DNA of 64,000 nucleotides from Thermodesulfobacteriota bacterium. GTDB lineage: Bacteria > Desulfobacterota > GWC2-55-46. The DNA lies in the NCBI GenBank assembly GCA_030583865.1, contig CP129479.1:1-64000 (forward strand). Direction: 5' to 3'. Under the pieces are notes generated by a model that did no database searches, was not told the origin of the DNA, and worked only from the letters and a program-made list of their open reading frames with translations. Below are positions 9,991 to 12,967 of this stretch, piece after piece. The stretch's first letter is position 1. Every line of letters starts with the position of its first letter. The translations under genes were made by a program, and so were the position numbers.

Positions 9991-10013
9991 AAGGGTGGGC
10001 CGAGCCCACCCTT
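9991..10013 (-). terminator. Strong hairpin downstream of the AbiJ-like gene
   Basis: Perfect 10 bp stem (AAGGGTGGGC / GCCCACCCTT, 3 nt loop) 6 bp past the stop codon at 10019, followed on the minus strand by TTTAAGG. It is consistent with an intrinsic terminator, although the T-run is short. Confidence 0.65.
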
Positions 10014-10018
10014 ACTTG

Positions 10019-10999
10019 CTAGAATGGCATGTCGTCATCAAATGGATCTACTGCCTTCTCGGGAGGCAGCGCCCTCTTTGGCAGCGGCAGGTTCGTGACG
10101 ATGAACAGGTTGAGGATATCATCACGGTCCATGAACATGATCTGCAACCGCTTGGTCGCGTCCAGTTTGTTACCGAGCCAGTTTCTTGCCTGCTTCGTTA
10201 TTTCGCCACCAGCGACGATGAATGCATGGTCAACCAGCACGCGACGATTCAACTCGGGGTCGAATATCTCATGCCCGAGCATCATGTTCACTTGATTGTG
10301 AATCTCTGCAACATTACTGGAATCGTCCTTGCCGATACCAGCAGCGTCCAGCTTGCCCTTTTTCGCTTGGATGCCAAAGTAGAGGACGTGAAGGGTCGGC
10401 AGGGTGTATTTCATCCACACGTCCTTGCCGTATTCCAGCGCCTTATCCTTGTGGCCAGCTGCCGTGATGCGATGGAAACCAAGCTGACGGAACAGCGGCA
10501 ACAGAACTTCCTCAATCAGTTCATCCTCGGAACAATTGTCAAGATAGGCTGTGAGCTGCTCTCGGCGTTCCACTTCCGCTGGCGTCAGCGGGCGATGTGG
10601 ATTCGCCATCTGCGCAACGGTGTTCGTATCGATATGGCGAAGCTGTCCGATACCGTGCTCGTCGTAGAACGCTTCCCAACCTTCGCGCGCTAGTACGATG
10701 TTCAGTGCGGCAAGGGCTTTGCTCCTGTCCGGGTCATCGTCTTGCGCATCGCCTTTGTCGAGCGTGGCACGGATGATTCGGATGAAAGCATCAGGCGGAA
10801 CAGAAGGACTGGAATGCGGTAGCGCCAGCACCTCCTCTAGCCTGCTCGCAACCCATGCCCAACGGGTCGAACCATCGTGAACGTAATCTAGGTCGCAGTC
10901 TTGAAAAAACTCTGTAATGTAGCTGCTTGAGCGATAGCGAAAGTGGTCAGCATCACCACAAACGATGCGGGCAAGTTCTCTGAGGTTTCGATTTTCCAT
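10019..10999 (-). CDS. Putative abortive-infection protein: AbiJ-NTD3-like N terminus with a PD-(D/E)XK nuclease-like C terminus
   Basis: 326 residues in two parts. The N-terminal ~120 residues (ITEFFQDCDLDY, STRWAWVASRLEEVLALP, IIRATLDKGD, ALNIVLAREG) resemble in pattern the AbiJ N-terminal domain 3 seen in defence proteins. The C-terminal half has ALEYGKDVWMKY followed by YFGIQAKKGK, the spaced E/D...D...QxK of restriction-endonuclease (Mrr-like) folds, then IVAGGEITKQARNWL and IMFMDRDDILNLF, as near the end of Mrr-type domains. Codon use is alien: Arg is mostly CGN and Ile ATC, while neighbours favour AGG and ATA. It lies just beyond the 3' end of tRNA-Ser. Function is inferred from motif shape only; domain assignment needs a profile search. 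Confidence 0.6.
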   Translation of the reverse strand: MENRNLRELARIVCGDADHFRYRSSSYITEFFQDCDLDYVHDGSTRWAWVASRLEEVLALPHSSPSVPPDAFIRIIRATLDKGDAQDDDPDRSKALAALNIVLAREGWEAFYDEHGIGQLRHIDTNTVAQMANPHRPLTPAEVERREQLTAYLDNCSEDELIEEVLLPLFRQLGFHRITAAGHKDKALEYGKDVWMKYTLPTLHVLYFGIQAKKGKLDAAGIGKDDSSNVAEIHNQVNMMLGHEIFDPELNRRVLVDHAFIVAGGEITKQARNWLGNKLDATKRLQIMFMDRDDILNLFIVTNLPLPKRALPPEKAVDPFDDDMPF

Positions 11000-11014
11000 T
11001 TCATAAACGAACCC

Positions 11015-11034
11015 GGCCTGCCTCCCGGCAGGCC
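11015..11034. other. Perfect hairpin upstream of the AbiJ-like gene
   Basis: GGCCTGCC-TCCC-GGCAGGCC, an 8 bp perfect stem 15 bp before the ATG at 10999. It could end transcription from the tRNA side (no T-run) or modulate translation of the AbiJ-like gene. Confidence 0.45.
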
Positions 11035-11129: not shown

Positions 11130-11214
11130 TGGCGGAGGGTGAGGGACTCGAACCCCCAAGGGCGTTAGCCCGCCGGTTTTCAAGACCGGTGACTTACCAT
11201 TAGCCTAACCCTCC
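11130..11214 (-). tRNA. tRNA-Ser (anticodon UGA)
   Basis: 85 nt cloverleaf with encoded CCA. The acceptor GGAGGGT pairs with ACCCTCC, the anticodon stem CCGGT/ACCGG holds loop CTTGAAA (anticodon TGA), the long variable arm GGGC-TAAC-GCCC is diagnostic of a class II tRNA, and the T loop is TTCGAGT. It reads UCA. Its 3' end faces the foreign-looking gene at 10019-10999. Confidence 0.95.
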
Positions 11215-11508: not shown

Positions 11509-12840
<1,332 letters not shown>

Positions 12841-12867
12841 TCAAATTTCGTGCAGCTTGCAAGAGCC

Positions 12868-12894
12868 GAGATTCTTCGCTTCGCTCAGAATGAC
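12868..12894. repeat. Intergenic repeat half-copy
   Basis: GAGATTCTTCGCTTCGCTCAGAATGAC, itself an imperfect palindrome, in the 181 bp between ubiX and serS. It is of the same type as 11275-11337 and of a style dispersed in many bacterial genomes. Confidence 0.6.
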
Positions 12895-12967
12895 TACAAA
12901 AAATTCCTTCAGACGGAAACTTCGGGAATAAGCTACTCGCCTTGCAGCCGGACGCGGCGATTATAAG

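Follow-up and report, generated by a model that had tools for sequence, protein, structure and literature searches.

What is a lone, foreign-looking gene doing beside the tRNA-Ser gene of a Thermodesulfobacteriota bacterium, and how did it come to be there? The window, that is, the whole stretch of 64,000 nucleotides that was analysed, lies at the start of contig CP129479.1, and the host genome consists of this one 2.75-Mb contig. A sequence-only reading had singled out the gene as a possible single-gene defence system joining an AbiJ-like N-terminal region to a restriction-endonuclease-like core. The analyses described here lead to a similar answer, held at a probability of about 0.62: the gene encodes a horizontally acquired, single-gene anti-phage effector, an infection-triggered DNase that acts by abortive infection. 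The features on which the argument draws are collected in Table 1.

Table 1. Features of the two-domain gene and its flanks, numbered by position in the window.
Feature	Coordinates	Strand	Remarks
Two-domain gene	10019..10999	-	326 aa, stop codon included; homologues 60-91% identity
N-terminal AbiJ-NTD-like domain, residues 1-139	10583..10999	-	alpha+beta; common to HEPN, AbiJ and TIR-like proteins
HDGSTR motif, residues 41-46	10862..10879	-	H41, G43 and R46 invariant in 70 family members
C-terminal PD-(D/E)XK (Mrr-like) nuclease domain, residues 140-308	10076..10582	-	AF2 model, fold matches
D193, predicted metal-binding Asp of GKD	10421..10423	-	invariant, 70/70
Q211-A-K213, predicted (D/E/Q)xK catalytic motif	10361..10369	-	invariant, 70/70
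Ancestral start codon, used by homologues	11002..11004	-	now out of frame
tRNA-Ser(tga), resident flank	11130-11214	-	same place in congener locus L099
Hairpin GGGTGGGC/GCCCACCC, 3' side of inserted stretch	9992..10012		congener has hairpin at corresponding place

The reading frame begins with ATG, has no internal stop and, as had been described, lies next to the 3' end of the tRNA gene, which faces it from 130 bp upstream. Its codon usage is the most divergent of the 47 ORFs of at least 150 aa that the window alone provides for comparison (rank 1 by excess divergence), which bears out the earlier statement that it is the clearest outlier of the region. The share of CGN among arginine codons is 0.78 against 0.38 for the pooled window ORFs, that of ATC among isoleucine codons 0.74 against a median of 0.33, and that of ATA 0.11 against a median of 0.57, while GC3 is 0.62 against a median of 0.75. 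Second place is taken by the ORF at 11653-12966(+), which is the antisense of serS.

Comparison with relatives likewise indicates a foreign gene. It was not found in the other 29 genomes of the family that were searched, and in the phylum sample a full-length homologue occurred in one other of 395 genomes; a resident gene kept at the same locus throughout the lineage is thus not what was seen. In a congener (G029, locus L099), serS, the tRNA-Ser gene and, downstream of them, the metallopeptidase gene stand in the same order as in the window, and the two-domain gene is absent from the matching slot. The aligned gap between tRNA and metallopeptidase gene is ~155 nt there and ~1.24 kb in the window, giving a net insertion of ~1.1 kb that holds the two-domain gene alone. 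The nearest proteins (91% aa identity) come from Bordetella, Ramlibacter and Pseudomonas, and in the family tree the window protein groups with proteins of these genera and of Brachymonas (small-group support 92/96). The gene was therefore acquired horizontally by this lineage. Transfer as part of a longer element was rejected, since DNA homology to the nearest relatives is confined to the ORF and ends at its borders (10016-10021 to 11004).

The part that the tRNA gene was thought to play stood up less well. The gene does adjoin the tRNA 3' end, as an integrated element might, but a duplication of that end and an integrase were both looked for at the locus and neither was found, so the tRNA-Ser gene is a neighbour rather than a demonstrated att site. 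At the other border of the insertion, the hairpin in Table 1 is a REP-like dispersed element: its pattern, AGGGTGGGC-NNN-GCCCACC, has 5 sites in the genome against 0 for a reversed control pattern. A second, perfect hairpin (GCCTGCC/GGCAGGC, window 11012-11031) lies just upstream of the start codon of the gene and is absent from relatives.

The C-terminal half contains the predicted 'GKDV...IQAKKGK' core, in which D193, Q211, K213 and K216 are invariant in all 70 homologues. More broadly, G191-K-D193 and Q211-x-K213 are unchanged throughout, and D193...Q211-x-K213 fits the (D/E)..(D/E/Q)xK motif given for Mrr-cat domains (PMC3874153). The whole-protein AF2 model, built from 70 sequences, reached pLDDT 81 and pTM 0.54, with a low-confidence loop (181-191) just before D193. 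Its best structural match was AspBHI (Z 10.0, rmsd 3.6, 133 residues aligned), followed by MspJI (Z 9.2), the LlaBIII nuclease (8.9), FokI (8.6), the Avs4 nuclease (8.2) and Shedu (8.2); all of these cover residues ~140-310, and such Z scores, near 8-10, speak for the fold and not for activity. Foldseek placed FokI and MspJI at the top. The restriction-endonuclease fold that the sequence-only reading had proposed was thus recovered by structure prediction, although Pfam Mrr_cat (PF04471) gave no significant match (4 of the 70 members, best E 0.01, the window protein P0001 itself not among them). On the modelled fold and the invariant catalytic triad, this half is a predicted PD-(D/E)XK nuclease of the Mrr/MspJI type, and it would be expected to cleave DNA.

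The N-terminal half, modelled alone (AF2, residues 1-126), gave pLDDT 92 and pTM 0.87, and no PDB fold, SRA-like readers included, matched the model above Z 3.0. The same domain was recognised in front of several other effectors. A 281-aa protein (L105:1486-2331(+); hhalign profile E 1.2e-15) is HEPN-like, with the RxxxH-type motif RNLVHP; it has no Pfam family and adjoins a type I methylase gene. In L131, a divergent copy of the domain, whose N-terminus matches the Stk2 kinase model (8.6e-9), is joined to the AbiJ C-terminus Abi_C (PF14355, 4.5e-20; PADLOC AbiJ, 5e-27). Two more proteins, L130:961-1845(-) and L148:2986-3960(+), carry it before a C-terminus that is tentatively TIR/deoxyribosyltransferase-like, with a weak match to a PADLOC TIR effector (~1e-5) and PHROG matches of unknown function. 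The latter protein sits on an IMG/VR viral contig. Within the family itself, 10 of the 70 members matched the Stk2 model (PADLOC PDLC02375; best 7e-5), and in one member, scanned alone, profile positions 4-63 aligned with residues 6-65. The residues G15, Y22, R23, F31, F32, G43 and R46 are common to all effector types.

An AbiJ-type module is therefore present, as had been suggested, but its assignment to AbiJ_NTD3 (PF18860, a model of ~167 positions) was rejected. Pfam gave no significant match (11 of 70 members listed, best E 0.0062), and the profile alignment, although its hhalign score of 33.6 exceeds the maximum of 19.2 among 100 shuffles, covers only the last ~44 of ~130 residues. The pattern noticed at first is thus a shared sub-motif. 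A true AbiJ_NTD3 protein (L103:1105-2010(-); PF18860 E 1.5e-58) is encoded elsewhere in the congener that has the empty site.

In the mechanism that we propose, the Mrr-like PD-(D/E)XK domain would be a metal-dependent DNA nuclease that stays inactive while the cell is at rest; on sensing a cue of infection, the AbiJ-NTD-like module at the N-terminus would switch the nuclease on, and the activated nuclease would degrade phage and/or host DNA, so that the infection is aborted. Computed support for this reading comes from the two domains, the nuclease fold with its invariant triad, the interchangeable effectors on the N-terminal module, the lack of a partner gene, the mobility of the family, the acquisition by this lineage and the strong purifying selection. 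From these we infer cleavage of DNA, a sensing role for the N-terminal domain, a trigger, and an outcome in which infection is aborted and not directly restricted. Sequence divergence is in keeping with it: mean pairwise identity is 55% in the N-terminal domain and 80% in the nuclease, and the nuclease has the higher value for 2413 of 2415 pairs, a difference that one would predict if a sensor were attached to a conserved enzyme.

The strongest competitor is a type IV, modification-dependent restriction enzyme, in which the N-terminal domain would read modified DNA and the Mrr/MspJI-like domain cut nearby without suicide of the host. The module at issue is also found on HEPN-like RNases and TIR-like domains and resembles the N-terminus of Stk2, and none of these would need a reader of DNA modification. 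LlaBIII, FokI and Avs4, moreover, have the same nuclease fold and work without modification dependence. What this explanation has in its favour is that the nearest nuclease folds, AspBHI and MspJI, belong to modification-dependent enzymes (PMC3874153) and that a methyltransferase partner is missing; none recurs in the ~92 loci surveyed, and classical restriction-modification was rejected on that ground. Exchange of the module among DNase, RNase and TIR-like effectors and its likeness to the Stk2 N-terminus argue for an infection sensor over a DNA-modification reader, and hence for a triggered DNase; the type IV alternative appears unlikely.

The present start of the gene raises a different doubt. 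Homologues begin with MKWK or M-x-FK, and DNA homology in the window extends to an ATG at 11004, which is out of frame because the A-run at 10992-10995 is one base shorter. The present ORF opens at the in-frame ATG at 10999, five bases after the ancestral start, with the loss of about three N-terminal residues. This deletion could weaken the copy. It might even mark a decaying passenger whose function was lost when the 1-nt deletion shifted initiation downstream, an idea favoured by the missing M-x-(W/F)-K start, which is conserved in homologues. Decay seems improbable, however, as 326 codons remain open and the dN/dS against close relatives is 0.03-0.07, a rough ratio given that dS is near saturation; relative to its close homologues the window copy is under strong purifying selection. 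A homopolymer sequencing error in this one-contig assembly would also explain the missing base.

Horizontal acquisition of a putative triggered DNase agrees with the wider occurrence of the family. Among GTDB relatives, 128 candidate stretches were confirmed by tblastn, the best 80 of the 128 being 62-91% identical. Members were found on 46 PLSDB plasmids, of which 24 are predicted to be conjugative, on 10 IMG/VR contigs, and in 191 of 5426 complete E. coli genomes (blastn). The E. coli copies examined (L149:15001-15981 and L151) lie within a prophage, with rspB and ydfJ on either side, and the prophage copy is downstream of a small integrase gene of 603 bp; WP_023147794.1 is a prophage-borne E. 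coli protein of this family. The deposited phage genomes and PHROGs gave no match. In one E. coli genome the gene is interrupted by ISEcp1, and frame-disrupted relatives occur in Geminicoccaceae and Devosia assemblies (L027 and L079).

Profile searches assigned no housekeeping fold to the protein. Pfam, NCBIfam and PADLOC returned no significant match for P0001, a sequence search of the PDB returned none for P0001, the family profile drew no credible match there, and four member accessions, used to search the literature, turned up nothing. Matches to Type_III_YscX and Pan3_PK fell below the cut-off and were dismissed as chance.

The suggestion that the gene stands alone also held across the family. 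No neighbouring family recurs in more than 7 of the ~92 loci, and an operon partner was rejected, the only candidates being lineage-specific blocks, a type I restriction-modification system in a few Rhodobacteraceae and VapBC in enterobacteria. Known defence genes do stand alongside: five of ten adjacent large genes, picked by size without a matched control, encode PADLOC defence proteins (DRT1a, MzaA, two type I REases and Ppl). Together with the plasmids and prophages, the survey of homologues thus showed a defence-like distribution. A toxin nuclease that stabilises its carrier element by addiction or plasmid maintenance could account for the nuclease fold and for the position beside VapBC on enterobacterial plasmids, but it is very improbable given that no small antitoxin partner is conserved in the 92 loci, that VapBC is already a complete pair by itself and that the window copy is a chromosomal single-gene insertion.

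Although Pfam, NCBIfam and PADLOC lack a model for it, the family is conserved at 60-91% identity across several phyla. Complete E. coli genomes carry it, as do conjugative plasmids of enterobacteria, so that it could easily be tested in laboratory E. coli. As the N-terminal module is common to other defence effectors, its trigger would tell what several uncharacterised single-gene systems detect. A bolder proposal, which we put forward tentatively and at less than even odds, is that the N-terminal domain acts as a shared sensor of infection, responding to a conserved cue and driving at least five chemically different killers, namely a DNase, two types of HEPN RNase, a kinase and a TIR/deoxyribosyltransferase-like enzyme. 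In that case the present family would represent the DNase form of the system, encoded by a single gene and distributed over several phyla, whose presence in E. coli prophages and on clinical Klebsiella plasmids has escaped notice.

Comparison with known systems places the family between several of them. With the modification-dependent MspJI/AspBHI enzymes it has a (D/E)..QxK-type motif in common and, at Z 9-10, the fold of the nuclease domain, whereas identity is as low as 9-13%, the N-terminal domain differs and no SRA-like domain was recognised in the window protein. Its likeness to AbiJ_NTD3 lies in a helix pair with 'LN..L..xG.E', while the alignment leaves out its first ~70 residues and with them YRSS...FF...HDGSTR. 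Lactococcus-type AbiJ (Abi_C/HEPN) is linked to it by the divergent N-terminal copy in L131, but has a HEPN RNase as effector. Stk2, another single-gene anti-phage protein, is alike over ~60 N-terminal residues, but its effector is a Ser/Thr kinase. The closest precedent is the combination of AbiJ-NTD1 with an MRR-type REase, an architecture predicted in 2013 from single examples with no function given (Anantharaman 2013, PMC3710099). In that work AbiJ-NTD1, whose alignment includes residues 1-140 of Bcep1808_2091, is also listed with AbiJ HEPN, other HEPN, STY kinase and deoxyribosyltransferase-like partners, and the partners of the present module (AbiJ HEPN, other HEPN, kinase-like, REase and TIR-like) agree with that list. 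The N-terminal domain is therefore a candidate AbiJ-NTD1, an identity suggested by the partner list; a Pfam model for NTD1 did not turn up. The kind of architecture was thus already known, and the family is best read as an unannotated member of it; what is new is that a conserved, mobile family for which the libraries have no model is now defined, together with a pair of occupied and empty sites and evidence that its N-terminal module has been combined with exchangeable effectors.
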